From IMG/VR virus record IMGVR_UViG_3300017714_000120, positions 1 through 27,599 of that record: 27,599 nucleotides of DNA. The stretch is one strand, 5' to 3'. A program made the translations under genes and the position numbers. Shown here in pieces: positions 3,397 through 27,599 of the stretch (positions are counted from its first letter, which is position 1; each line of letters begins with the position of its first letter). Under the pieces are notes generated by a model. That model saw only the letters and a list, made by a program, of their open reading frames with translations, had not been told where the DNA came from and ran no database searches. Source of the DNA: a virus.

Positions 3397-3607
3397 AGTT
3401 GCAAAAGAAGCTATCATTAAGCATGACCCTGAAGACGACTTGTCTGCAGATAGATTAAAAAATGCTGCAGCAACAAAGAAGCTTGCTATATTCGATGCAT
3501 TTGAAATATTAAGCAGAATAGAAGCAGAACGAGAAGCTCTCGATTTATCTGGGACAAATAAAAAAGTAGATACAAAACAAGGATTTGCAGAACGAAGGTC
3601 AAAATAA
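3329..3607 (+). CDS. Candidate terminase small subunit
   Basis: This 92-residue, mostly helical protein ends 23 bases inside the large terminase gene. The assignment rests mainly on position: the gene just upstream of the large subunit is usually the DNA-recognition subunit, and small helical proteins of about 90-160 residues fill that role. The stretch from about residue 30 to 70 (HDPEDDLSADRLKNAAATKK and a following amphipathic helix) could form an oligomerisation helix. I do not see a clear helix-turn-helix. It is short for the family, so another packaging accessory role is possible. Confidence 0.5.
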   Translation: MKSKEIKLKIIEAGHRAVEQLIKVAKEAIIKHDPEDDLSADRLKNAAATKKLAIFDAFEILSRIEAEREALDLSGTNKKVDTKQGFAERRSK

Positions 3608-5834
3608 AGATTTATATAAAATATTAGAAGACTATATTCCTAAAGCTGTCCTTACTAATAAGAATAGGAATAAGAGCTGGACTTACGGCTACAATAAAAA
3701 ATATGATTTTATATGTATATCAAAAACTGGAGAGCTTGGAGATATACTAAACATACAAGGCGTTATAGTTGGCTTACCCAAGCAGCCTAAACAAATACAC
3801 AGTAGGTCTAAATCTAAGACAGACCAATACTGGGAGAGAATAGATATTCCTAAACAGCTAAGTAAAATTCAATCTATATTTCAATGGAATGAAATGCCAT
3901 CTGAATTTAAAAATAATTGGGTAGATTATATTGAGAATGAGTTTGATAGTAGAGAGCTAGGCTATTGGTTTATGAACAATGGAGTTCCTACATATATAAC
4001 TGGAGCACATTATATGTATCTGCAATGGACTAGCATTGACGTAGGATATCCAGATTACCGAGAAGCTAATAGAATATTTTACATATTCTGGGAAGCATGT
4101 AAGGCAGATAGTAGAAGCTTTGGAATGACATACCTAAAAATAAGACGGTCAGGATTCTCTTACATGGGGTCTTCGGAATGTGTTAATACAGGTACTCTTG
4201 CAAAAGATTCAAGAGTTGGGATATTATCTAAAACAGGTTCGGATTCCAAGAAGATGTTCACAGATAAAGTAGTTCCTATAGCTAATAGATTGCCTTTCTT
4301 TTTTAAACCTATACAGGATGGTATGGATAAACCTAAAACAGAACTTGCTTTTAGGATACCTGCATCTAAGATAACAAAGAAGAATATGTATGTGGCGGAC
4401 AAAGAAGAGTTGATTGGGTTAGACACAACAATTGACTGGAAGAATACAGATGATAACTCTTATGATGGTGAAAAGCTTTTATTACTGGTGCATGACGAAA
4501 GTGGAAAATGGATAAAGCCTAACAATATACTTAATAACTGGAGGGTTACAAAAACTTGTCTTAGACTAGGAAGTAGAGTTATAGGGAAGTGCATGATGGG
4601 TTCCACTTCTAATGCGTTGAGTAAAGGTGGTGGTAACTTTAAAAAACTTTACGAAGATTCAGACGCAACCAGTAGAAATTCTAATGGGCAAACTAAAAGT
4701 GGATTATATAATTTATTTATTCCTATGGAATGGAATATGGAAGGTTTTATAGATAGATATGGAATGCCAGTGTTTAGGAAACCTGAAAAAAAAACAGTAG
4801 GAGTAGATGGAGAGATAATAGATAATGGTGCGGTAGATTATTGGGAAGCGGAAGTGGACAGTTTAAAGAATGACCCAGATGCTTTAAATGAATTTTATCG
4901 TCAGTTTCCTCGAACAGAATCTCATGCGTTTAGAGATGAGAGTAAGCAGTCATTATTTAATTTAACAAAAATATATCAGCAGATAGATTACAATGATTCT
5001 ATGATAACAGAACATCACGTTACTCAAGGTTCTTTTTCTTGGAAGGATGGTATTAAAGATTCTTCTGTTGTATGGACACCTAATAATAGAGGTCGGTTTA
5101 GGGTTTCATGGACACCTAATAAAAACCTACAGAATAGAGTAATAAAACGAAACGGTAAGAATCTTCCAGGGAACGAACACTTAGGTGCTTTTGGATGTGA
5201 CAGTTATGATATATCAGGAGTTGTAGGAGGCGGAGGTTCTAATGGTGCTTTGCATGGGCTTACTAAGTTTAATATGGATGATGCACCTAGCAATGAGTTT
5301 TTTTTAGAATATGTTGCTAGACCTCAAACAGCAGAGATATTTTTTGAAGAAGTATTAATGGCTTGTGTGTTTTACGGAATGCCTATACTAGTGGAGAATA
5401 ACAAACCAAGATTATTATATCATTTTAAAAACAGAGGGTACAGAGGATTTAGTTTAAACAGACCTGACAAAACATATAATAAATTATCAAGAACAGAAAG
5501 AGAATTAGGAGGTATACCTAACTCTAGCGAAGATGTAAAGCAAGCTCACGCTGCAGCAATAGAGTCTTTTATAGAAAAACATATAGGATTAGATATGGAA
5601 AACACATTTAGAGATTCTGACCTAATGGGTACTATGCCGTTTACCAGAACTTTAGAGGATTGGGCTAAATTTGATATAAGCAATAGAACCAGGTTTGATG
5701 CCTCTATTAGTAGTGGATTAGCTATAATGGCATGTCAAAAGCATCTTTACACACCTGAAACAAAAAGCTCAAAAATTTCCATTAACTTTGCAAGGTATAC
5801 CAACAAGGGATTAACAAGCGATATTATAAGATAG
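3585..5834 (+). CDS. terL: Terminase large subunit (packaging ATPase-nuclease)
   Basis: This 749-residue motor protein pumps DNA into the prohead and cuts the concatemer. ATPase domain: the P-loop position reads KIRRSGFSYMGSSE (R187, R188, G190, S192) without the usual GK[ST] lysine. Walker B is LLLLVHDES with D304 and catalytic E305. The coupling motif is STSN at 340-343 followed by a glycine-rich segment and NFKKLYEDSD. Nuclease domain (RNase H fold): D539 in FGCDSYD, E604 in ILVENNKP and D705 in RFDASISSGLA fit the three metal-binding acids. The best start is TTG 3585, since an in-frame TAG lies at 3567-3569 and the next ATG is about 100 residues inside. The gene overlaps the preceding one by 23 bases, and its TAG abuts the portal ATG. 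Confidence 0.92.
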   Translation: MQNEGQNKDLYKILEDYIPKAVLTNKNRNKSWTYGYNKKYDFICISKTGELGDILNIQGVIVGLPKQPKQIHSRSKSKTDQYWERIDIPKQLSKIQSIFQWNEMPSEFKNNWVDYIENEFDSRELGYWFMNNGVPTYITGAHYMYLQWTSIDVGYPDYREANRIFYIFWEACKADSRSFGMTYLKIRRSGFSYMGSSECVNTGTLAKDSRVGILSKTGSDSKKMFTDKVVPIANRLPFFFKPIQDGMDKPKTELAFRIPASKITKKNMYVADKEELIGLDTTIDWKNTDDNSYDGEKLLLLVHDESGKWIKPNNILNNWRVTKTCLRLGSRVIGKCMMGSTSNALSKGGGNFKKLYEDSDATSRNSNGQTKSGLYNLFIPMEWNMEGFIDRYGMPVFRKPEKKTVGVDGEIIDNGAVDYWEAEVDSLKNDPDALNEFYRQFPRTESHAFRDESKQSLFNLTKIYQQIDYNDSMITEHHVTQGSFSWKDGIKDSSVVWTPNNRGRFRVSWTPNKNLQNRVIKRNGKNLPGNEHLGAFGCDSYDISGVVGGGGSNGALHGLTKFNMDDAPSNEFFLEYVARPQTAEIFFEEVLMACVFYGMPILVENNKPRLLYHFKNRGYRGFSLNRPDKTYNKLSRTERELGGIPNSSEDVKQAHAAAIESFIEKHIGLDMENTFRDSDLMGTMPFTRTLEDWAKFDISNRTRFDASISSGLAIMACQKHLYTPETKSSKISINFARYTNKGLTSDIIR

Positions 5835-8270
5835 ATGAAAGAAGTAAAAGTAAAAATTTCATCTGTAGGTTTTCCTAGTCAATTTGTGTCAGATGCAGAA
5901 AAAGCCACTGATGAGTTTGGCTTACAAATAGGGCAAGCGATACAGTATGAGTGGTTTAAAAAAGATGGTAACGGTTGTCGTTATTATTCTCAATGGAGAG
6001 ACTTTCATAAACTACGCTTATATGCAAGAGGTGAGCAATCTGTTGCAAAATATAAAAATGAATTAGCAGTTGATGGAGACTTATCTTACCTCAACTTAGA
6101 CTGGACTCCAGTTCCTATACTTCCAAAATTTGTAGATATAGTAGTTAACGGAATGTCCGACCGATTATTTAAGGTTAAGGCATACGCTCAAGATGCTTTA
6201 TCTCAAGGAAAAAGAAGTAAGTATCAAGATATGATTGAAGGTCAAATGGCTGCTAAAGATATCTTATTAGATATTAAAGAGATGACAGGAGCAGACCCTT
6301 TTACAATGGACCCTGATTCGTTACCTGAGAATGATGAGGAGCTTACTTTATATATGCAGCTTAACTATAAACCTGCTATTGAAATTGCAGAAGAAGAAGC
6401 TATAGATACTATGTTTGCTGAAAATCATTATCAGGATATTCGTAAGAGAGTTGATTATGATTTAACAGTATTAGGAATAGGAGTGGCGAAGCATGAGTTC
6501 TTACCAGGTTCTGGTGTAGAAGTTAAATATGTTGACCCTGCTAATGTAGTATATAGTTATACTGAAGACCCTCATTTTAAAGATTGTTTTTATTGGGGAG
6601 AAATTAAAAATGTTCCTATAACAGAATTACTTAAGATAGACCCTAAGCTTACTAATGATGATTTAGAAAAAATATCTAAATACAGTCAGAGCTGGTATGA
6701 TTATTATAATGTAGCACAGTATTATCAAAATGATATATTCTATAGAGACACTGTAACATTGATGTATTTTAATTATAAGACCACTAAGAAGATGGTATAT
6801 AAGAAAAGAATATCAGAGAACGGTGCTGTTAAAATGATAGAAAAAGACGACCAATTTAATCCTCCACCAGAAATGATGGAAGATGGAAAGTTTGAAAAAG
6901 TTTCTAAAACTATTGACGTATGGTACGAAGGCATTATGGTTATGGGAACGGATATATTATTAAAATGGGAACTTGCAGAGAATATGGTTAGACCCAAATC
7001 TTCTTCTCAGCATGCTCTCCCTAATTATGTAGCGGTAGCTCCAAGAATGTATAAAGGAGTTATTGAATCTTTAGTTAGGAGGATGATACCTTTTGCAGAT
7101 TTAATACAAATTACTCATTTAAAATTACAACAGGTTATAGCTAGAGTAGTTCCTGATGGTGTGTTTATAGATGCTGATGGATTAAATGAAGTAGATTTAG
7201 GTACAGGTCAGGCTTATAATCCTGAAGATGCCCTAAGGCTTTACTTTCAGACAGGTAGTGTTATAGGTAGGAGCTATACACAAGACGGAGATTTTAACCA
7301 GGCTAGAGTTCCTATCCAACAGCTTACATCTAATAGTGGTGCTAGTAAAACACAAATGCTAATTACAAACTACAATCATTATCTTAACATGATTAGAACT
7401 GTAACAGGGTTAAATGAAGCTAGAGATGGTTCAACTCCAGACCCTAATTCTTTAGTAGGATTACAGAAGTTAGCAGCACTTAATTCTAATACAGCTACAC
7501 GTCATATATTACAAGGTAGTTTATATGTTTATAGAACATTAGCCGAAGCGTTAACATACAGGGTGGCTGACATTTTAGAATATGCAGATTTTAAAGAAGA
7601 TTTTATAAGCCAGATAGGAAAATATAATGTGTCTATTCTAGGTGATATATCAGATTTATATATTTATGATTTCGGAGTTTTTATAGAGGTTTCTCCAGAT
7701 GAAGAAGAGAAGGCACAGCTTGAACAAAACATTCAAACTGCTCTGTCTAAGAGTGATATCAATCTTGAAGATGCAATTGATATAAGAGAATTAAAAAATA
7801 TAAAATTAGCTAATCAATTATTAAAAGTTAAGCGTAAGCAGAAGCAAGAGCGTGATGAAAAAAATGAGATGATGAAGCAGCAGATGTTAGCTCAGCAGCA
7901 ATTAAAATCTCAACAGATGGCAGCACAGGCATCTATGCAGAAATCTCAAGCGGAGATGAATGCTAAGATGCAGATTAAACAAGCGGAGATTGCTTTTGAA
8001 ATAGAGAAGATGAAGAATGAAGCTCAACTAAAAAGTCAATTGATGGCTCAAGAGTTTGAGTATAATCAACAATTAAGAGATATTTCGGAACAAGCTTTAG
8101 CTAATAGAGAGGTAAGTAGAGAAGATGCAAAATCATCTCGAATAAGTCAACAGAACTCTGAACAATCTAAGCTTATAAATCAACGAAAAAATAATTTACC
8201 TCCTCAAACATTTGAGTCTAATGAAGATAGCTTAGACGGCTTTGATTTAGCGGAATTTGACCCAAGGTAA
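5835..8270 (+). CDS. Portal protein with long glutamine-rich C-terminal coiled coil
   Basis: This 811-residue protein starts directly at the terminase stop codon. Portals form the twelve-subunit ring through which DNA enters and leaves the head. The middle region shows patterns usual in large podoviral portals, such as YNPEDALRLYFQTGSVIG and a later GLNEARDGSTPDPNSLVGLQ segment, the kind of helix region that lines the channel. From about residue 655 to 785 the protein becomes a charged, Q/K/E/M-rich helix, probably a coiled coil or barrel extending into the head. The length fits crAss-like and other large portals. The assignment rests on size, position between terminase and scaffold genes, and these patterns. 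Confidence 0.85.
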   Translation: MKEVKVKISSVGFPSQFVSDAEKATDEFGLQIGQAIQYEWFKKDGNGCRYYSQWRDFHKLRLYARGEQSVAKYKNELAVDGDLSYLNLDWTPVPILPKFVDIVVNGMSDRLFKVKAYAQDALSQGKRSKYQDMIEGQMAAKDILLDIKEMTGADPFTMDPDSLPENDEELTLYMQLNYKPAIEIAEEEAIDTMFAENHYQDIRKRVDYDLTVLGIGVAKHEFLPGSGVEVKYVDPANVVYSYTEDPHFKDCFYWGEIKNVPITELLKIDPKLTNDDLEKISKYSQSWYDYYNVAQYYQNDIFYRDTVTLMYFNYKTTKKMVYKKRISENGAVKMIEKDDQFNPPPEMMEDGKFEKVSKTIDVWYEGIMVMGTDILLKWELAENMVRPKSSSQHALPNYVAVAPRMYKGVIESLVRRMIPFADLIQITHLKLQQVIARVVPDGVFIDADGLNEVDLGTGQAYNPEDALRLYFQTGSVIGRSYTQDGDFNQARVPIQQLTSNSGASKTQMLITNYNHYLNMIRTVTGLNEARDGSTPDPNSLVGLQKLAALNSNTATRHILQGSLYVYRTLAEALTYRVADILEYADFKEDFISQIGKYNVSILGDISDLYIYDFGVFIEVSPDEEEKAQLEQNIQTALSKSDINLEDAIDIRELKNIKLANQLLKVKRKQKQERDEKNEMMKQQMLAQQQLKSQQMAAQASMQKSQAEMNAKMQIKQAEIAFEIEKMKNEAQLKSQLMAQEFEYNQQLRDISEQALANREVSREDAKSSRISQQNSEQSKLINQRKNNLPPQTFESNEDSLDGFDLAEFDPR

Positions 8271-8323: not shown

Positions 8324-9412
8324 ATGGAAATAAAAGTAAAAGAAGTAGGTGTTATTGAAGAAAAATCAGCAATAGAAGTAGAAGAAACTCTACTAGAAAG
8401 TGCAGAACAACAACACGAAGCAGAATCACAACAAGAGGTTGTAGATAATAGTACATCACAAGAGGAAACTCAAAGTACTGAATTAAAAGAAGAAGACGTT
8501 CTTAGTTTTATTAAGAATAGATATGATAAAGACATATCATCAGTAGGTCAATTGTTTGATGAAAAACAAAACAACGAACCATTACCTGAAGATGTGTCAG
8601 CTTATTTTGAATATAAAAAGAAAACTGGTAGGGGGATTGAAGACTATGTTAAGTTAAACAGAGATTTTGATTCTTTAGATGGAGACCAGATTTTAACTGA
8701 GTATCTTTTAGCCACAGAGGAAGGCATTGATAAAGAAGATGTTGAATTATTAATGGAAGATTATTCATTTGATGAGGATGTGGATGATGAATCTGATGTA
8801 AAAAGAGCTAAGTTAAAAAGAAAGAAGGCAATTGTAAAAGCAAAGAAGTTCTTTAACGAACAGAAAGAAATGTATCACCAACCGCTTGAGTCAAGTAGTG
8901 TTGGTATTTCTAATGATAGTGAAGAATATAAGGCTTATAAACAATATGTTGATAATGCAAAAACTCAAGACGAGGAAAGTCAAAGAAGGTCTGCGTTTTT
9001 TTTACAAGAAACAGACAAGGTTTTAAATCAAGATTTTAAAGGTTTTAAGGTCAGTATTGATGAAGCTAACTTATTGTATAATCCTGGAGGAACTGTGGAG
9101 GAAATTAAAAACTCTCAATCTAGTATCAAGAATTTTATTGATAGTCATTTAGATGAAAGTGGATTAGTTAAAAATGCATCTGAGTATCATAAAGCATTAT
9201 CGGCAGCAATGAACCCTGATAAGTTCGCAAGGTTTTTTTACGAACAAGGAATGGCGGCAGCAACAGAGGACGTGACAAGAAAAATAAAGAATGTCAATAT
9301 GTCCACACGTTCTGCTCCTGAAGTTACTTCAAAAGGAGGAACTCAGTTTCGTGCAATGAACCCAAGTACTGGAAAAGGTTTAAAAATTAGAAGTATAAAA
9401 AATAAAAATTAA
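8324..9412 (+). CDS. Probable head scaffolding protein
   Basis: This 362-residue protein lies between portal and capsid genes, the normal place of the scaffold. The first 60 residues are very rich in E, Q and S. The middle is charged and helical, with an acidic cluster near residue 145-155 (FDEDVDDESD) followed at once by a lysine/arginine run. The C-terminus ends in a basic KIRSIKNKN tail. An acidic, helical body with a basic C-terminal tail is the classic scaffold layout, where the tail binds the capsid protein. There is no protease motif that I can see, so self-cleavage is not supported. The upstream gap carries a promoter-like element. Confidence 0.75.
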   Translation: MEIKVKEVGVIEEKSAIEVEETLLESAEQQHEAESQQEVVDNSTSQEETQSTELKEEDVLSFIKNRYDKDISSVGQLFDEKQNNEPLPEDVSAYFEYKKKTGRGIEDYVKLNRDFDSLDGDQILTEYLLATEEGIDKEDVELLMEDYSFDEDVDDESDVKRAKLKRKKAIVKAKKFFNEQKEMYHQPLESSSVGISNDSEEYKAYKQYVDNAKTQDEESQRRSAFFLQETDKVLNQDFKGFKVSIDEANLLYNPGGTVEEIKNSQSSIKNFIDSHLDESGLVKNASEYHKALSAAMNPDKFARFFYEQGMAAATEDVTRKIKNVNMSTRSAPEVTSKGGTQFRAMNPSTGKGLKIRSIKNKN

Positions 9413-9430: not shown

Positions 9431-10915
9431 ATGGCAGGACAATTATTAGGACCAAATACTAACCCAGTAGGTCCAGGATTTCAATTACAGCCAGCACCAC
9501 AGCAAGTGCCGTTGGCTACTAATTACATTACTGATTTCAACTTTTTGAATCAGTACTTACCAGATACGTACGAGAAAGAGTTCGAGCGTTATGGTAATAG
9601 AACTATCTCTTCTTTCTTACGTTTAGTAGGAGCAGAGTTACCAAGTAACTCTGACTTAGTAAAGTGGGCAGAGCAAGGTAGATTACACACTAAATACACA
9701 CAGTGTGGTACAGCAGCAGTAGTTGCTGGAGACAATGTAACATTTGATATTAACGATGCGTTAGTACCAGACCGAGCTGCAACAGGCTTAACTGCTGGAA
9801 CAATTGCAATTCGTGTAGGTCAAACTGTTGTAGTTTCTAAAAATGACGGAACAGGAGAATTTAAAGGTATTGTTACTGCAGTAGGTGTAGCAGGTGGTTT
9901 AAACGCCAACCAAATCGTAGTTGCTTTTTACAATGCTCAAGGATTTACAGGTGGTACAGGAGCAGGAAATGCTGATGCAACTATCTTTATCTATGGTTCT
10001 GAATTTAAAAAAGGAAGCAACGGAATGCAAGGTTCTTTAGAGGCTGAAGATGAAATCTTCGATAACTCTCCAATTATCATAAAAGATAAGTACGCAGTAT
10101 CTGGTTCAGATATGGCTCAAATCGGATGGATTGAAGTAACTTCAGAGAATGGAGCTTCAGGATACTTATGGTATTTGAAGTCAGAGCATGAAACAAGATT
10201 ACGTTTTGATGACTACTTAGAAACAGCAATGATTGAAGCAGTACCAGCTGAAGCAGGTTCTGGAGCAATTGCAGCAGGAGGAGATGTAGGAAACAAAGGT
10301 TCTGAAGGTGTATTCCACGTAGTGGAAAACAGAGGAAACGTATGGGCAGGTGGAAACCCAACAGCTCTAGCGGATTTTGACACTATTATTTCTCGTTTAG
10401 ATAAGCAAGGGGCGATTGAAGAAAACGTACTTTTCTTAAACCGTCAGTTTGGATTTGACATTGATGATATGTTAGCTGAGCTTAACGGTTCTGCTCAAGG
10501 TGGTGGAGCTAATGGTACTTCTTACGGTCTATTTGACAATGATGAGGAGATGGCTCTTAACTTAGGATTTACAGGATTCCGTAGAGGATATGACTTCTAC
10601 AAGTCCGACTGGAAATACCTAAACGACCCAACAATGCGTGGAGGTCTTACTGGAACTGGTGCTGTAAACGGTATGTTAGTTCCTGCTGGTTCTACTACTG
10701 TATATGACCAAATCTTAGGAAAGAATGCTAAGCGTCCTTTCTTACATGTTCGTTATAGAGCTTCTGAAACAGAAGACAGACGTTACAAGACTTGGATTAC
10801 AGGTTCAGCTGGTGGTGCTGCAACATCTGATTTAGATGCAATGGAAGTAAACTTCCTATCTGAAAGATGTGTATGTACTATGGGAGCAAATAACTTTGTG
10901 ATTTTCCAATCATAA
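9431..10915 (+). CDS. Major capsid protein
   Basis: This 494-residue protein follows the scaffold gene by 18 bases. N-terminal residues 30-90 are helical (LNQYLPDTYEKEFERYGNRT) and lead to an acidic-aromatic core, as in HK97-fold capsid proteins. Residues of about 100-190 look like an inserted beta domain with VGQTVVV, GIVTAV and ATIFIYG strands. Codon choice differs from the neighbours: CGT for Arg, AAC, TTC, GAC and GGT are common here, as expected for the most abundant virion protein. Two stop codons stand in tandem (TAATAA), followed by a strong terminator. Identification rests on position, size and codon bias rather than on one diagnostic motif. Confidence 0.85.
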   Translation: MAGQLLGPNTNPVGPGFQLQPAPQQVPLATNYITDFNFLNQYLPDTYEKEFERYGNRTISSFLRLVGAELPSNSDLVKWAEQGRLHTKYTQCGTAAVVAGDNVTFDINDALVPDRAATGLTAGTIAIRVGQTVVVSKNDGTGEFKGIVTAVGVAGGLNANQIVVAFYNAQGFTGGTGAGNADATIFIYGSEFKKGSNGMQGSLEAEDEIFDNSPIIIKDKYAVSGSDMAQIGWIEVTSENGASGYLWYLKSEHETRLRFDDYLETAMIEAVPAEAGSGAIAAGGDVGNKGSEGVFHVVENRGNVWAGGNPTALADFDTIISRLDKQGAIEENVLFLNRQFGFDIDDMLAELNGSAQGGGANGTSYGLFDNDEEMALNLGFTGFRRGYDFYKSDWKYLNDPTMRGGLTGTGAVNGMLVPAGSTTVYDQILGKNAKRPFLHVRYRASETEDRRYKTWITGSAGGAATSDLDAMEVNFLSERCVCTMGANNFVIFQS

Positions 10916-10928
10916 TAATGTGAATACA

Positions 10929-10960
10929 GGGGAGGGTATTTATTGCCCTCCCTTTTTTTT
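10929..10960 (+). terminator. Intrinsic terminator after the capsid gene
   Basis: GGGAGGG at 10930-10936 pairs perfectly with CCCTCCC at 10946-10952 around a 9-base loop, followed by eight T residues. A GC-rich stem of this kind is striking in such AT-rich DNA. It lies 14 bases after the capsid stop codon. Confidence 0.92.
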
Positions 10961-10980
10961 AATAATTAAATTTTAATCAA

Positions 10981-11733
10981 ATGAAAAAAAATAATTTAGT
11001 CAATAAGACTTACAAACTTACCAAAGAAGCAGCACCACTTTCTTTTATGCTGCCAACTAGAAATTCAAGAAGATACCCTTTAATGCATTTTGATGAGGTC
11101 AAAGGTGAAAACAGAGCTTTGCGATATGCACGAAATCAAAAAAGCCCTTTTGAAGACGAGCAGGATGGAAACGCTATTGTGGAACCTGTTATTTTTGAAG
11201 ATGGTTTTTTACATGTATCTAGAACTAATCCAGTTCTTCAGGAGTTCTTACATTATCACCCAATGAATGGTGCTAAATTTGTAGAGGTTAATACAGAAAA
11301 AGATGCTCAGAAAGAAATGGATGTTTTAAATTCAAGAGTGGATGCTTTAATAGAAGCTAGACAATTAGATATAGACCAAGTGGAAGCATTAGCTAGAGTA
11401 TTGTTTAATACAGATGTATCTAGAACCACCTCAGCTGAGTTAAGAAGAGATATCTTAATTTTTGCAGAGCAGGAGCCAGCACAATTTTTAAATGCTGTTA
11501 AAGACCCTACATTAAAGTTAAATTCTTTAGTTCAAGAGTTCTTTTCACATAAGGTATTAATATTTAAAAATAATAAAAAAGATGTATACTTTAACACCCC
11601 TAAAAATAAGAAGAGGATGTTAAATCTTCCTTTTGGGGAAGACCCTTATTATGTTATCTCTTCCTATTTACAAACTGATGAAGGAGTTGACATATTAAAA
11701 TTTTTAGAAAAAAATCTAGAAAACAAAAGATAG
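10981..11733 (+). CDS. Head-region protein of unknown function, between two terminators
   Basis: This 250-residue protein has a proline- and arginine-rich N-terminal part (LSFMLPTRNSRRYP) and NPVLQEFLHYHPMNG at about residue 80. A long charged helical middle (about 105-180) follows, including AELRRDILIFAEQEP. The C-terminal part (about 185-250) contains FGEDPYYVISSYLQTDEG. There are no membrane segments and no cysteines. The architecture resembles a protein that I recall next to capsid genes in other marine phages, annotated there only as structural, so a head-completion, decoration or packaged role is inference. It starts 20 bases after the capsid terminator's T-tract and is followed by its own terminator, so its level is probably set by read-through from the capsid gene. 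Confidence 0.7.
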   Translation: MKKNNLVNKTYKLTKEAAPLSFMLPTRNSRRYPLMHFDEVKGENRALRYARNQKSPFEDEQDGNAIVEPVIFEDGFLHVSRTNPVLQEFLHYHPMNGAKFVEVNTEKDAQKEMDVLNSRVDALIEARQLDIDQVEALARVLFNTDVSRTTSAELRRDILIFAEQEPAQFLNAVKDPTLKLNSLVQEFFSHKVLIFKNNKKDVYFNTPKNKKRMLNLPFGEDPYYVISSYLQTDEGVDILKFLEKNLENKR

Positions 11734-11754
11734 TATTTCTATTAACGTTATACC

Positions 11755-11788
11755 AAGGGGTTGCAAAAATGCAACCTCTTTTTTTTTA
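11755..11788 (+). terminator. Intrinsic terminator closing the head-gene block
   Basis: AAGGGGTTGC (11755-11764) pairs with GCAACCTCTT (11771-11780) with a single G:T wobble and a 6-base loop, and a run of T follows through 11788. The stem's outer AA:TT pairs merge with the T-tract. It separates the head genes from the neck and tail genes, and a promoter element lies directly downstream. Confidence 0.9.
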
Positions 11789-11790
11789 CT

Positions 11791-11798
11791 TATCTTTG
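11791..11798 (+). promoter_or_regulatory. Bacteroidota-type -7 promoter element for the neck/tail genes
   Basis: TATCTTTG fits TAnnTTTG exactly. It starts just after the terminator T-tract and ends 18 bases before the ATG at 11817, which would give a short leader. No TTG lies at the standard -33 spacing; the nearest is in the terminator stem, 27 bases upstream. The same eight bases occur before the cupin gene at 19936. Confidence 0.6.
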
Positions 11799-11816
11799 TG
11801 GTAAATAATTTAACAG

Positions 11817-12773
11817 ATGAGCATTATTAATTCGGTACGAGAAACAGTGCTGTCGGTCCTTAATAAAAACAACTACGGATATATTACTCCTAGTGATTTT
11901 AACCTTTACGCAAAGCAAGCTCAATTAGATATATTTGAAGATTACTTTTATCAGTATAACTATCAAGTAAATCAAGAGAATGCTAGAAAATCAGGTATAG
12001 GACTAGCGGATATTAAAAAGATATATGAGGAAGCGATTGACTTATTTTCTGTAACAGCAGGATTATATAATCAGGTAGATAATACTTACTCTGTTCCTTC
12101 ACTAGCTACAACAGGTAGTGATTATTATTTATTAAACAAAGTTTTAGTATTTAATGAGGTTTTAGATGAAGGGACTACAACAGGGGTTAGTGGTGGACAA
12201 AATAGAATTATAGACGCTAATGCTGATTTTAGTGATATTAGTGTAGGGGATATTGTAGCAATTGAGAATAACGGTGTTCAATATCTAAAAGTAGTAACTG
12301 TAGTTAATAGCACTACACTACAGGTTTCACCTAATCTTACAGGTCCTGTTGGCACAAAATATTCTATATATAAAAAAGGAACACGTTTTAATGAAGCAGA
12401 AAGAGTTACACATACTAAAATAACAATGTTGAACAATTCTATACTTACATCTCCTAACTCTTCTTATCCAGCTTATACAACAGAAAGCGTATCGTTAGAT
12501 GTATTCCCTGAAGATGTAACCTCAATTGGTAGAGTTAAGTGTCAGTACATTAGATACCCTAAAGACCCTAAGTGGACATACGTGCAGTTAGTAGGAGGAG
12601 AACCTTCGTTTGATTCATCTAGTGCATTGTATCAAGATTTTGAGATTCCATTAGAAGATGAACCCACACTAGTTAATAAGATATTACAATATGCAGGAAT
12701 GTCTATAAGAGAAGCTCAAGTTACACAGTTTGCAACAGGATTGGATACTATTGAAACGCAAAAAGAAAAATAA
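11817..12773 (+). CDS. Head-tail connector / ring-type protein
   Basis: This 318-residue protein opens the tail operon after a promoter element. Residues 1-100 are helical with a tyrosine-rich segment (FEDYFYQYNYQVNQ), compatible with a connector that stacks on the portal. Residues of about 137-185 form a small beta module (DFSDISVGDIVAI ... KVVTVV ... TKYSIYK) of a type that I recall as a recurring insert in phage virion proteins. The C-terminal third has YIRYPKDPKWTYV, typical of connector or tail-tube gatekeepers. The gene shares one base with the next (TAATG). Position between head genes and the nozzle gene is the main support. Its exact place in the neck is unknown. Confidence 0.65.
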   Translation: MSIINSVRETVLSVLNKNNYGYITPSDFNLYAKQAQLDIFEDYFYQYNYQVNQENARKSGIGLADIKKIYEEAIDLFSVTAGLYNQVDNTYSVPSLATTGSDYYLLNKVLVFNEVLDEGTTTGVSGGQNRIIDANADFSDISVGDIVAIENNGVQYLKVVTVVNSTTLQVSPNLTGPVGTKYSIYKKGTRFNEAERVTHTKITMLNNSILTSPNSSYPAYTTESVSLDVFPEDVTSIGRVKCQYIRYPKDPKWTYVQLVGGEPSFDSSSALYQDFEIPLEDEPTLVNKILQYAGMSIREAQVTQFATGLDTIETQKEK

Positions 12774-23229: not shown

Positions 23230-26200
23230 ATGGATAAACTAAAAACTTTATTTGACGTATTAACTAGAGACGGATATTACACTAAATCTTTTGAAGAGTT
23301 TCAAACACAGTTCCAAGATTCTTCTTATAAAGACAAAGTATTTAATGTTGTTTCTAGAGATGGTCTTTTTACAAAATCAAAAGATGATTTTTTAAATATG
23401 TATCAGGTTACTGAAGTTGAGCCTGTAAAAAAAAAAGAAGTTACGGAGTCCACTTCGGAAACTGGTTCTTCGGATTCATTCGAACCTCTTGAGGGCGATG
23501 AGCTTATAGCTCCTGAAGGTGTTTCTGATGTTGATGCAAGAGGGGAAAGCCCTTTGTCCTCACAAGACTTTCAAGTTCAAGACGAGAGACAGCAGGCTGC
23601 TCAGCAAGCAGACAACACACAACTACAACAAGCTCCAGTTCCTGTTACTCCAGAGGAACAACAAACCGCAGTAGATGCAAGGGAAGATTTTGAGCAACAG
23701 CGAGCTATTGATATGGAAAATTATCTTGCTCAGCAAAAAATTGAGCAGGACCTAATAGCAGAAAAAACACAGGAAAATCAACAGCTACTTCTAAAGAGTG
23801 ATGGATTTAAGGCTGACCTTGATATTATCAACGAAGAGTTAATAGCTCAGGCTGAACAGCCTGTTGTTGAGGAACTTACAAGAAGGTTTACAAAATATGG
23901 ATTGACATTTGAAGAGACAGGCATGGGTGATGCTATGGTTGTTTCTAATTTTGATAACTCTAAAACAGTAAGAATAAACCTAGACCCTAATCTTTCTAGC
24001 GATGAAATTCTAGAATCTAAAAAACTAAAAGACTTTATAGTAGACAACAGTCTAGAGGTATATGAGGATAACGACTCCTTAGAGTTCGATAACCAAGCTG
24101 AGAAAGCAAGAAGCATCAGAAGAAATCACTTAATAAATCCAGATGGTTCTTTTTCTACTGTTAAATTTACATCATACGAAGAGGATGGCAAGCACAAAGT
24201 TATACCTACTCTGTTTCCAAAGGACAATAATTTTTATGGAACTATAGCTGATGATTGGATGGAGCTTGAGTTTGATGATGCTAAGCAAGTAGCCGAGGAA
24301 AGAGGTGAGGTATTTAGTTTTGAAACCGCTGAGGAGGCAGAATTATTTGCTGAAGGGGAATGGAAAGATATTCATACTACAGATGCTTTAGGGAAGTCCT
24401 TGTACTCAGAGATAGATAAGAACTACAAGTTCGAAACAGCTAGATATGATGAGTATCTTAGAGTCAGAGATGAAATAGATTTTATAGAATCCCAGCTTGG
24501 AGATTTTGGTATTGATACAGAAGACGAGCTAACTGACCAGCAGAAAAAAAAATACGGAAACTTATATGTTGAGGGTATACTTAGAGATGATGCCTCTCAA
24601 ATTTTAAAAGAACTTAAAGAGAAGGAAGACGCTCTATATTCAGAAGTGAATACAGAGGAGCTTATAGAGATGAGAGAGAAGTTTGACCTTGCTCTAAATA
24701 AAAAGTATGACATGCTAGCTCAAGAGGCGGCTATGGCAAATGGTGAAACACAAGTTTACCAAGACGCTTTAAATGAGCAGTCTATTTCTTTATTTGGTGT
24801 AGAGCTTAAGGACCTTACAGATATTATTCCTAAAGATGAGCAGGACGCTTTACTATTAGATGAGTTTAAAACTCAAGCCGCTCTTATCAACTCAGAGAAG
24901 GTTCATGCTGCTAGAAAATATGAGAACGCTTTAACTTTCTACGACAGGAAGTTTGATAAGTCTATTACTGAAGAATACGAAACAGGTATAGCTGCAGTAT
25001 ATGGTGAGATACAGAAAGGTTTAAAGGATGGTAATGCCTCTGAGGTTATCCTTCAGCTATCTACAGGCATGCCTTTCGATATGAAATCTTTAGATATAAA
25101 CAACCCAGAAGATGTTAGAAAAGCAGCAGAGATGATTGCTAGTCTTAAGGGTGGCAGCCAAAAGGGGAAACAAGGTAGACAGATGGCAAGATGGAACAGG
25201 GCTGTAGGTTTTAGAGAATCGCTAGATTCATTTCTTAGAAACCCACGTGAATTAGCATTATCATTAGCTGCTAACTCTATATCAATGATGTTACCTTATG
25301 GAGTTGAGCTAGTAGCAGGTAGTGCTGCAACAGGAGCTACGCTCGGTAGTATTATTCCAGGAGCTGGAACAGTTGCTGGAGGTATAAAAGGAATGAGAGT
25401 AGGTATGGCAGCTACTAATTTTTCTATGGAATATACCAATGAGTTCTTTGATGCGATGCAGGCTAATGGGTATGATGTACTAGACCCTGACGATGTGGTG
25501 GAAGCAATAAATAATGATAAAGTATGGGCTACCGCTAAGGAAAGAGGAATGAAACGAGGTATACCTATAGCTGTCATGGATTACATTAGTTCTGGATTAG
25601 TAGGTAGAGTTTTTCAAGCTGGTAGCGTAGCAGCCAAAGGAAGACGTTTGGCTCTTGCCGCTGCCGAGCGTGGTATTGTTGACCCTGCTATGGAAGGTGC
25701 TGGGGAAGCTGCTGCTCAGTTGGTTGCAGACGGAACATTAGATGGAAAGGAAATTGGTGCAGAGATGATTGGTGGTTTTGGTTCTAACGCATCTACTGCT
25801 GCAGTAAATAAGATGTTTAATGTTCGCAGTAAAAGTAATATAGAGCTAGCCAATAGGCTTACTGATATAAACTTTATAGCCTTCGAGAAAAGTTCTGACA
25901 CTAGAATATCTAAGTGGACTAACAACATGCTAAAGCTAGGAAAGATTAATTCTGAACAAGCTCAGCGTATACAAAAGAATTTAGGTCTTTCTAAGGATGC
26001 AGATAACCTAGTGGACTTCGGTATGTCTAAAAACAAACCTAAGAACAAAAGAGTTAAGGCTAGATTAATGGAACTTCTAGCTGCAAAGGAAGAGTATTCT
26101 GCTGATGTGAACCGTAGAGAAATCTTTGGACAGAAGATAAAGGATATTAATGCAGAGATTGCTTATCTTGTAGAGAATAAAACCTTAGCACCTGACGGTC

Positions 26201-27599
26201 AGCGAGCTAAGATAGAGTCTATAACTTCACCAGGAGTTGAGGTTAGTGATGTAAGAGCTGGTATATCAGAGTATATAATTGATGGTAAATCATATACCAA
26301 GGAAGCATTCCTAAAAGAGATTGGAAAAAGAACCGCTAAACAGATGAGTAAGTTTAATGGGAAGGTGGTTAATGATGAGGAAGTTAGTAAACAATTAGCA
26401 GAAAAAATAGAAACCAAAACAGATACAGATGCCGTTCAAATCACAGAAACAGAGAGCGTGGATGCACGCCAACAAGCCGCAATTGGCGAAGGAGTGGGAA
26501 CAGGAGTACCCACAGCAGAAACCACAGAACTTGAGACCACAGAAACGGAACAAATAGAAGAGCCTACAACTAAGCCACAGACTATCGTTGCTGTTGCCCC
26601 ATTCTTTGATACTACAATAGAGAGTGCTGAACAGGCACAGACTTTGAGAGAAAGTGAGGGGTATCAGCAGTACAAAAATAACTTAACTGGTATAGGTCAA
26701 CAACTAGGATTAGAGGTTGAGGTTGAAGAGGGTATTGGTGGATACAAGAATGACGCAGGTACAGAGATAGTAGAGATATCTAATAGAGTTGTACTTAAGA
26801 ATGCGACAATAGAACAAGCTCAAGAGTACGCTGCGTTAACAGCAGCCTTAGCTCCTGAAACACAAGAGAGTAGCATAGCTGCTGAGTTTGTGGAAGAGGG
26901 TTCTGAAAAACATAATGGAAACGAATACATATTAAATGTATCAGATACTCAAGGTGTAATGAATGCCTTGAAAAAAGCAGGGATAACAGACTATAGTATT
27001 AATGAAGATACAGGGGAAGTAAGTTTTATAAATATATTTGACTTTGATGACCCAACTCTTCAAGATAAAATTGGTATCTTTGTACAGGAATTAGAAGCTA
27101 ATAATATTAATTATGAAAAACAAAACTACCGAGCAGTCAACTCCGTCTATGTCGACCAGGGAAAAAGGAAAGAAATTCTTGGAAGAGCTGCGAGCCAAAG
27201 GTCCGCTGACAGACAAACTGGGTCAGACGTTTATAGTTCGCTCCTCCAAGCAATAGAGAACGATGCTAAGTTCGAGGGAATAACTACTGAAGAATACTTC
27301 CCAGGATTTAAAGAACTACAAGCCAGCTCAACTGCAGCGGCTCAAGAGGTGGCAGACTTGGAAGCCACACTAGATGATACAGATTCAAAAGTAGATTTTA
27401 GAAAGAAAGATGATGCTACATTTATCCCAATAAAAGATGAAGTAGACGCTGTAACTAAAGCTATTAACGATACCCCTTCAGGTAATGTGTCCACTAATTT
27501 AGTGGTAACGCCAGAGGGTAGTATTGATGTTACAGAATTAAATTCTAGAACTGATAGGGAGCTTCCATCAATAAAAGACTTAAGTGTAATCAATGGTAT
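23230..27599 (+). CDS. Giant multidomain ejection / polyvalent protein (5' part, runs off window)
   Basis: The frame is open from ATG 23230 to the window edge: 1456 codons without a stop. Residues 7-28 and 37-58 are two copies of a 30-residue-spaced repeat, (L/V)F(D/N)V(L/V)(T/S)RDG(Y/L)(Y/F)TKS. A Q/E/A-rich linker follows to about 190. Residues of about 298-382 carry NPDGSFSTVKFTSYE, KVIPTLFP and later FETAEEAELFAEGEW, a module that I recall from internal virion proteins of many phages. Residues 660-730 are hydrophobic and Gly/Ala-rich, followed by RGIPIAVMDYISSGLVGR (776-793) and GAGEAAAQL (824-832), a membrane-type module common in very large phage proteins. A T/E-rich linker covers 1058-1117. 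A further domain from about 1125 contains GGYKNDAGTEIVEISNRVVL. I infer a gp16-like ejection protein. Two alternate-frame ORFs are nested in it. Confidence 0.8.
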   Translation, partial: MDKLKTLFDVLTRDGYYTKSFEEFQTQFQDSSYKDKVFNVVSRDGLFTKSKDDFLNMYQVTEVEPVKKKEVTESTSETGSSDSFEPLEGDELIAPEGVSDVDARGESPLSSQDFQVQDERQQAAQQADNTQLQQAPVPVTPEEQQTAVDAREDFEQQRAIDMENYLAQQKIEQDLIAEKTQENQQLLLKSDGFKADLDIINEELIAQAEQPVVEELTRRFTKYGLTFEETGMGDAMVVSNFDNSKTVRINLDPNLSSDEILESKKLKDFIVDNSLEVYEDNDSLEFDNQAEKARSIRRNHLINPDGSFSTVKFTSYEEDGKHKVIPTLFPKDNNFYGTIADDWMELEFDDAKQVAEERGEVFSFETAEEAELFAEGEWKDIHTTDALGKSLYSEIDKNYKFETARYDEYLRVRDEIDFIESQLGDFGIDTEDELTDQQKKKYGNLYVEGILRDDASQILKELKEKEDALYSEVNTEELIEMREKFDLALNKKYDMLAQEAAMANGETQVYQDALNEQSISLFGVELKDLTDIIPKDEQDALLLDEFKTQAALINSEKVHAARKYENALTFYDRKFDKSITEEYETGIAAVYGEIQKGLKDGNASEVILQLSTGMPFDMKSLDINNPEDVRKAAEMIASLKGGSQKGKQGRQMARWNRAVGFRESLDSFLRNPRELALSLAANSISMMLPYGVELVAGSAATGATLGSIIPGAGTVAGGIKGMRVGMAATNFSMEYTNEFFDAMQANGYDVLDPDDVVEAINNDKVWATAKERGMKRGIPIAVMDYISSGLVGRVFQAGSVAAKGRRLALAAAERGIVDPAMEGAGEAAAQLVADGTLDGKEIGAEMIGGFGSNASTAAVNKMFNVRSKSNIELANRLTDINFIAFEKSSDTRISKWTNNMLKLGKINSEQAQRIQKNLGLSKDADNLVDFGMSKNKPKNKRVKARLMELLAAKEEYSADVNRREIFGQKIKDINAEIAYLVENKTLAPDGQRAKIESITSPGVEVSDVRAGISEYIIDGKSYTKEAFLKEIGKRTAKQMSKFNGKVVNDEEVSKQLAEKIETKTDTDAVQITETESVDARQQAAIGEGVGTGVPTAETTELETTETEQIEEPTTKPQTIVAVAPFFDTTIESAEQAQTLRESEGYQQYKNNLTGIGQQLGLEVEVEEGIGGYKNDAGTEIVEISNRVVLKNATIEQAQEYAALTAALAPETQESSIAAEFVEEGSEKHNGNEYILNVSDTQGVMNALKKAGITDYSINEDTGEVSFINIFDFDDPTLQDKIGIFVQELEANNINYEKQNYRAVNSVYVDQGKRKEILGRAASQRSADRQTGSDVYSSLLQAIENDAKFEGITTEEYFPGFKELQASSTAAAQEVADLEATLDDTDSKVDFRKKDDATFIPIKDEVDAVTKAINDTPSGNVSTNLVVTPEGSIDVTELNSRTDRELPSIKDLSVING
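23248..23403 (+). repeat. Two-copy protein repeat at the N-terminus of the giant protein
   Basis: The translated units at residues 7-28 and 37-58 share xFxVxxRDGxxTKSxxxF at a spacing of exactly 30 residues. The DNA has diverged, so this is an old duplication at protein level. I recall similar tandem xYTKSxEEF units at the N-termini of large proteins in other Bacteroidota phages, which suggests a docking or targeting element. Confidence 0.75.
26429..26557 (+). CDS. Overprinted small ORF of the MPFKS-QR-W type
   Basis: ATG 26429 to TAG 26557 encodes 42 residues in the +1 frame relative to the giant gene. It begins MPFKSQKQRAWMHANKP and goes on LAKEWEQEYPQQKP, ending basic. The pattern MPFKS, then QR, an aromatic, A-N/K-x-P and a later A+xW is one that I know from free-standing small phage proteins of unknown function. 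In the main frame the same bases give a low-complexity T/E/Q linker, and the local G+C is raised. Both suggest that selection here acts on the +1 frame. It has no Shine-Dalgarno, like the other genes here. Expression is unproven. Confidence 0.6.
   Translation: MPFKSQKQRAWMHANKPQLAKEWEQEYPQQKPQNLRPQKRNK
27113..27256 (+). CDS. Candidate second overprinted small ORF
   Basis: ATG 27113 to TAG 27256 encodes 47 residues in the +1 frame relative to the giant gene, the same relative frame as the ORF at 26429. The product starts MKNKTTEQSTPSMSTREKGK and continues KFLEELRAKGPLTDKLGQTF before IVRSSKQ. It looks like a disordered head followed by a short basic helix and a strand. By my count 67 of 144 bases are G or C (about 47%), well above the surroundings. 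In the main frame this stretch is an R/S/Q-rich run (GRAASQRSADRQTGS). I do not recognise a family, so chance is possible. Confidence 0.35.
   Translation: MKNKTTEQSTPSMSTREKGKKFLEELRAKGPLTDKLGQTFIVRSSKQ

Follow-up and report, generated by a model that had tools for sequence, protein, structure and literature searches.

The last open reading frame of the window, by which we mean the whole 27.6-kb virus fragment analyzed here, encodes a giant virion protein, and its +1 frame very probably holds a genuine, independently initiated phage gene, termed S, that overprints a disordered linker of the giant gene; no expression data are available. Homologues of S are found both as genes of their own and inside other virion genes. 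S is likely to be older than the linkers that read across it, a well-supported inference since S is found where no host frame exists and the linkers are less well conserved than it is. In the mechanism that we propose, a neighboring reading frame would have been extended through S, capturing it, and S would later have passed from one host gene to another among related phages (the linker of the scaffold-like gene in some, that of the giant gene in others), its phase unchanged and its copy number one. By weaker inference, S, a predicted hairpin with a basic tail, would be a small morphogenesis protein made together with the late virion genes, and its head-module location suggests that it may act in head assembly.

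S lies within a giant virion gene

The features of the window on which the argument rests are as follows.

5835..8270, + strand: portal gene (phrog_6547), basis of the tree and of the unbiased sampling of relatives
8324..9412, + strand: scaffold-like gene, 362 aa, in the portal-to-major-capsid interval; homologue of the ~390-aa S host in relatives, without S
9431..10915, + strand: virion structural protein (phrog_13704); from synteny and its location behind the scaffold-like gene, the probable major capsid protein
23230..27597, + strand: giant virion gene (family I), host of S; last ORF, running off the contig
26425..26559, + strand: host-frame stretch overprinted by S, an acidic T/E/Q-rich linker (DAVQITETESVDARQQAAIGEGVGTGVPTAETTELETTETEQ)
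26429..26557, + strand: nested gene S, a 42-aa basic small protein, ATG start, stop included, in the +1 frame of the giant gene

PHROGs profiles match a terminase large subunit, a portal, and several virion structural proteins in the window, and the kin of its portal gene come from Flavobacterium, Cellulophaga, and Maribacter phages and a podovirus from Manatee Spring. The relatives of giant family I are 3,000–3,900 aa long. The preliminary description had called the host an ejection gene, a label that is plausible but has not been shown: the gene belongs to the virion module, and its relatives are annotated as structural protein or, for giant family II, as putative internal virion polymerase. 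In two distant giant I members, sub-threshold DUF6861 matches (L010, residues 700–743; L073, residues 303–371) lie ~375 codons ahead of S; the matched stretch is conserved, hydrophobic, and rich in glycine, and is perhaps membrane-active.

The ATG of S is at 26429, its stop codon ends at 26557, and its product, MPFKSQKQRAWMHANKPQLAKEWEQEYPQQKPQNLRPQKRNK, is read in +1 relative to the giant ORF (23230→27597). A complete 42-residue ORF at 26429–26557 and a T/E/Q-rich main-frame linker of higher G+C than its surroundings had both been proposed from sequence alone, and both held, the former with exact coordinates and the latter with a G+C of 0.50 for S versus 0.39 for the giant gene. S meets the architecture criterion for an embedded gene (a complete small ORF, on the same strand and in another frame, within a longer gene), and 119 loci have S fully embedded in this way. 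Length was discarded as evidence, since two longer +1 ATG ORFs (48 and 47 codons) share the giant gene and that of S is unexceptional within the window. What sets S beyond chance is its conservation in 10 of 10 relatives and the position of a third-position trough on the ORF, both described below. The window's S has the family motif, M1, P2, S5, Q8, P17, and W23, and the basic C-terminal tail. Members of the family are basic (median pI 10–12), whereas the peptide read from those bases in the host frame is acidic in four of the five groups compared.

Selection acts on the S frame

A search for relatives with the giant protein, made without selection for S, returned 11, of which 10 reach the site, and all 10 keep the start, frame, and sequence of S. 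The flanking host-gene sequence is often unrelated among the S-carrying giant relatives. The refuting case, a +1 frame broken while the main frame is conserved, was looked for, and no relative that keeps the surrounding giant-gene region shows it.

Across 16 relatives, the median of host third-position differences in the giant gene falls from 0.456 to 0.045 at 26425–26515, where the third/first-position ratio is 0.21; no second third-position trough is found elsewhere along the gene in this set. Nor is a comparable inversion seen in any other of the 12 window structural genes scanned in nine phages. The S trough is shallower in that scan (0.195) because of fewer sequences and a quicker alignment, and an apparent zero at 23488 is a no-data window due to an alignment gap. 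Codon-position scans of phage structural genes are, more generally, able to expose hidden genes.

The same pattern is seen in five nested groups, where differences are lowest at the second and highest at the third position of the S codons (Wilcoxon p = 1.5e-5 to 4e-3) and host third positions vary less than the flanks do (p <= 3e-6). The S-frame pN/pS is 0.14, 0.24, 0.17, 0.23, and 0.31 in the five groups, versus 1.83, 2.89, 1.10, 1.14, and 2.66, in the same order, for the host frame over the same bases. The p-values are indicative only, as they derive from simple site counts on related sequences; the difference between the frames is large and recurs in independent groups. Protein-level purifying selection acts on the S frame but not on the host frame that shares its bases. 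These codon-position and pN/pS statistics support the preliminary proposal of overprinting, with a linker dictated by the overlapping gene.

A referee might object that what is conserved is DNA and not the +1 protein, the giant gene containing a recombination patch or a cis-acting site of which the S ORF is a by-product. The swapping of host-gene flanks around a constant S in related phages is consistent with this notion. However, changes are concentrated at third positions of S codons, serine TCA/AGC swaps (three bases) preserve S and alter the host peptide, and the S protein is recognizable at 30–50% identity in distant phages whose DNA is unlike; we regard this explanation as virtually ruled out. 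Alternatively, the host-frame peptide could be the selected product, with the S frame passively conserved, and similar peptides (xAVQ...VDA...VGE) do recur in different host genes. The host-frame pN/pS of 1.1–2.9 and the least variable host third positions are, however, the opposite of the pattern that this requires, and S exists without any host frame, leaving this alternative almost no room. Selection on the S protein remains the preferred reading.

S carries its own initiation signals

S starts with ATG, or with GTG in a few loci. A strong Shine-Dalgarno sequence precedes S in 15 of 15 giant family II loci (mean −10.3 kcal/mol versus −2.2 for internal ATGs) and in 16 of 16 loci of the ~125-aa group, coil125 (mean −8.6 kcal/mol versus −2.7 for internal ATGs). 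In two giant I groups and the scaffold-like group, which are of Bacteroidota type, no Shine-Dalgarno sequence is found at S or at the host-gene start, and for that reason it was discarded as a universal criterion. Since it is missing even from the host-gene starts of these phages, an A-rich signal is the proper control there. Ribosome profiling and reporters in Flavobacterium johnsoniae, whose phylum is without Shine-Dalgarno sequences, have established that A at −12/−13, −6, and −3 promotes initiation (PMC6847099). The Bacteroidota-type groups have A at −13 (0.91–1.0), −12 (0.82–1.0), and −6 (0.76–0.95) before S, and the corresponding region of the window is as follows.

26409..26428, + strand: S initiation region, A-rich and Shine-Dalgarno-free, with A at −13 to −10 and −6 and C at −3

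This region matches the F. johnsoniae determinants (PMC6847099) at −13/−12 and −6. At −3 the window's S has C, not A, and most of its subgroup is likewise without A there. S carries initiation signals of its own that are of its lineage's type, a result that concerns sequence signals only.

Programmed +1 frameshifting from the giant or scaffold-like frame would instead yield a truncated host protein with S at its C terminus and no free protein. Two observations favor it: the +1 phase is uniform in 137/137 overlaps, and the S frame of a few loci extends without a stop far upstream of the start codon (163 codons in L035). Against it stand an ATG/GTG start that is conserved and closely preceded by an initiation signal matched to the lineage, the S-frame stops that most loci have directly or a few codons upstream of the ATG, which leave only a very short interval for a shift site, and the stand-alone S genes, which begin at the same residue. 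We consider frameshifting highly improbable and favor independent initiation of S.

S occurs in unrelated host genes in a single phase

Profile searches recovered at least 167 distinct S loci, counts that are not prevalence estimates, as the searches were limited to the top 80 and the queries were chosen. An ORF of at least 90 aa overlaps S in 137 of these loci, and S is in the +1 frame of that ORF in every case. The overlapping ORFs form unrelated clusters: a scaffold-like gene of 380–410 aa in the portal-to-capsid interval, with S ~40–65 codons after the gene start (55 loci); giant family I (49 loci); a ~125-aa gene, about the last 28 codons of which are overlapped by S (16 loci); and giant family II (15 loci). 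Two further overlapping ORFs are single cases.

Thirty S loci have no host frame, in-frame fusions included. Among the fusions, S is part of a protein with a Mu gpF-like domain in L079 and forms the N terminus of a 258-aa protein in the portal-to-capsid interval in L089/90/93/94. Stand-alone S genes were found in phage 023Pt_psg01 (URG13095.1), Streptomyces phage FlowerPower (gp48), phage C75C1 (as an unannotated ORF), and many viral contigs, often in the head module, and they start at the same residue as nested S; the proposed match of the nested ORF to independent small phage genes thus held. A tblastn search of phages with short stand-alone S gave no match. Two further observations concern these loci. 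The stand-alone S gene of C75C1 (L012) lies unannotated in the CDS0043–CDS0044 interval. The fusion protein of L079 (5851–9828; 1,325 aa) combines its S-like domain with an inorganic-pyrophosphatase-like domain in addition to the Mu gpF-like domain, and it has weak intein (Hint) matches.

In an unbiased sample of seven long portal-selected contigs, four carry S, all in the +1 frame of the giant gene, and S was undetected in the other three (L299, L300, and L301; 44–57 kb, giant genes of 2,700–3,300 aa). S is also absent from Maribacter phage Panino and Cellulophaga phage phi38:1. The giant genes of S-less distant relatives match the window in short N-terminal stretches or nowhere. It is possible that S is not essential in every relative, that it has been replaced there, or that it is too divergent to be detected.

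Given the S protein, a host-type frame is open in only 3–11% of random synonymous codings in the embedded groups, a result that rules out an intrinsically open host frame as the source of the constant phase. In the loci themselves, the host-type frame is open in 119/119 embedded cases versus 0/30 stand-alone or in-frame cases. The unused phase is open far more often (65–80%) for the S proteins of giant II and of the MHAN variant of giant I. The fixed +1 phase can therefore be put down neither to accident nor to ease of coding, and its simplest reading, by inference, is that both frames descended together.

By contrast, each nesting could have arisen de novo in its host gene, with the likeness of S due to convergence and without any swallowing or moving. 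The host genes are indeed unrelated between clusters. However, the start codon, the motif with its six invariant residues, the hairpin, and the basic tail are common to nested and stand-alone members, and convergence does not explain such shared features of 42-residue proteins, so that de novo origin is as good as excluded and common descent of S is retained. A bolder reading, which we hold to be less likely than not, is that S and the frame through it form a portable dual-coding cassette, since a +1 phase that is fixed despite the more often open other phase in two giant groups fits joint inheritance. If so, one frame would encode a basic morphogenesis protein and the other a usually acidic, stop-free, flexible linker, and the gene could move, spliced in phase, from one structural gene to another (scaffold, giant, or other) and leave each of them intact.

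Proposed capture and relocation of S

A single copy of S is present in 40 of 40 records searched. The 362-aa gene of the window is ~33% identical to the S-hosting scaffold-like gene and occupies the same portal-to-capsid place, without S. In the portal tree, phages with scaffold-hosted S form one supported clade and those with giant-hosted S the rest; together with the S-less scaffold homologue, this topology indicates at least one change of host gene between relatives. The MHAN and WDC variants of S in giant I are interleaved on the same tree, and therefore replacement of S, or divergence at its site, has also taken place within giant I. The nesting of S in other host genes and its relocation lay beyond what the preliminary description could see.

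One near-intermediate is L035. Here giant family II is divided between two genes: its N-terminal part is encoded by a 927-aa gene of its own, with S near the 3′ end of that gene, and its C-terminal part is encoded 4 kb downstream. The two parts of L035 occupy 3513–6296 and 10283–12130, with about five other ORFs in between. S likely marks the junction of the fused giant gene, judging from L035, an arrangement that fits capture by read-through or fusion. That S was swallowed and not born inside its hosts is inferred from two facts: S is widely found with no host frame, and the host linkers are poorly conserved. The direction of the earlier suggestion, a small gene swallowed by a growing frame, is thus supported by that occurrence and by the unfused N-terminal part in L035.

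Further observations were made on the sequence around S. S sits at mosaic joints of the giant gene, where adjoining host sequence is swapped between relatives and S is unchanged; such swaps distinguish L001, L003, and L022/L023 from other giant I members, and L099 from L101, L103, and L127. Blocks that adjoin S in one phage are found 130–290 codons away in another. Directly upstream of the scaffold-like gene start is a conserved AT-rich block (about TTATAATATTATAT; L104, L108, L118, L130, L149, L160, and L167), a possible promoter or initiation element.

Predicted structure and possible function

The AlphaFold2 model of S, built from an alignment that left out two rows from annotated records, is a hairpin with a loose tail (mean pLDDT 80).

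26444..26506, + strand: predicted helical hairpin of S (AlphaFold2), helices at residues 6–15 and 17–26, followed by the basic tail

Neither a PDB sequence search with S nor a fold search with its model gave a PDB match, and S has no match in Pfam. A fold search of a viral library returned only small uncharacterized phage proteins (E >= 0.09), several of which (40–53% identity) are probably relatives of S. PHROGs matches are weak only, that to phrog_1375 having E = 0.0033 over 21 residues (profile positions 17–37 of 70).

Where stand-alone or in-frame S has nameable neighbors, they belong mostly to the head module, chiefly the portal-to-major-capsid interval. No portal, terminase, or capsid probe protein was found near S in the coil125 phages. 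Our best guess is that S is a small late head-morphogenesis factor, an inference that we hold tentatively and that is by a narrow margin more likely wrong than right; a virion-packaged or DNA-binding role, also inferred, is a close alternative. Its partner might be the acidic scaffold-like protein, the portal, or DNA.

Comparison with known systems

Searches of the literature found no paper on the peptide MPFKSKAQ, and the S family is unreported in the literature on nested and overlapping phage genes that was searched, the scope of which excluded most subscription papers. Stand-alone small phage proteins of the form MP(F/Y)KSxxQR.(W/Y)MHAN.P..A..W share the N-terminal 26–33 residues, the start, and the predicted hairpin of S; they occupy intergenic loci of their own, and the would-be host frame is closed in 30/30. 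The family phrog_1375, of unknown function, is matched only from profile position 17 onward and over less than one-third of its profile. The giant structural protein of Flavobacterium elemo phage (NC_062743, YP_010356528.1) is encoded by a homologous host gene, which has a divergent S variant (MPFKSKAQMKACYSQDNPKWDCKKW...) in +1 at the corresponding linker. This variant is found in 68 of 68 Flavobacterium records, and in the rows examined only the giant "structural protein" is annotated over it. In the cultured Flavobacterium phages that were inspected, annotation has overlooked S, a real, widespread gene.

Few fully embedded genes in double-stranded DNA phages are both conserved and backed by several independent lines of evidence; Rz/Rz1 is the classic example. 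Like S, the "embedded" spanin pair of lambda (PMC6139136) has a small gene wholly inside another, in +1 and with its own start. Systems of the Rz/Rz1 type occur in embedded, overlapped, and separated arrangements, as does S, and the embedded gene is usually missed by gene callers; loss of the stop codon of the upstream gene has been sketched as a route to embedding (PMC6139136). S was considered as a spanin (o-spanin, Rz1) and rejected: it starts with MPFKSQKQ, has no signal peptide or lipobox, and lies in a virion module, not a lysis cassette. Spanins are lysis lipoproteins that act with the product of the host gene, whereas S is basic and without lysis features. Unlike Rz1, S is hosted by mutually unrelated virion genes (giant, scaffold-like, and ~125-aa), and its host gene changes between relatives.

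Members of one small gene family are thus found inside no fewer than three unrelated virion genes and overlapping one more, in a single phase, and the family's stand-alone relatives and near-intermediates (L035 and the 3′-end overlaps) trace a route from a separate to a swallowed gene. The embedded architecture is known from lambda Rz/Rz1; what is new is that the hosts are virion genes, that they are diverse, that the phase is fixed, and that S relocates.
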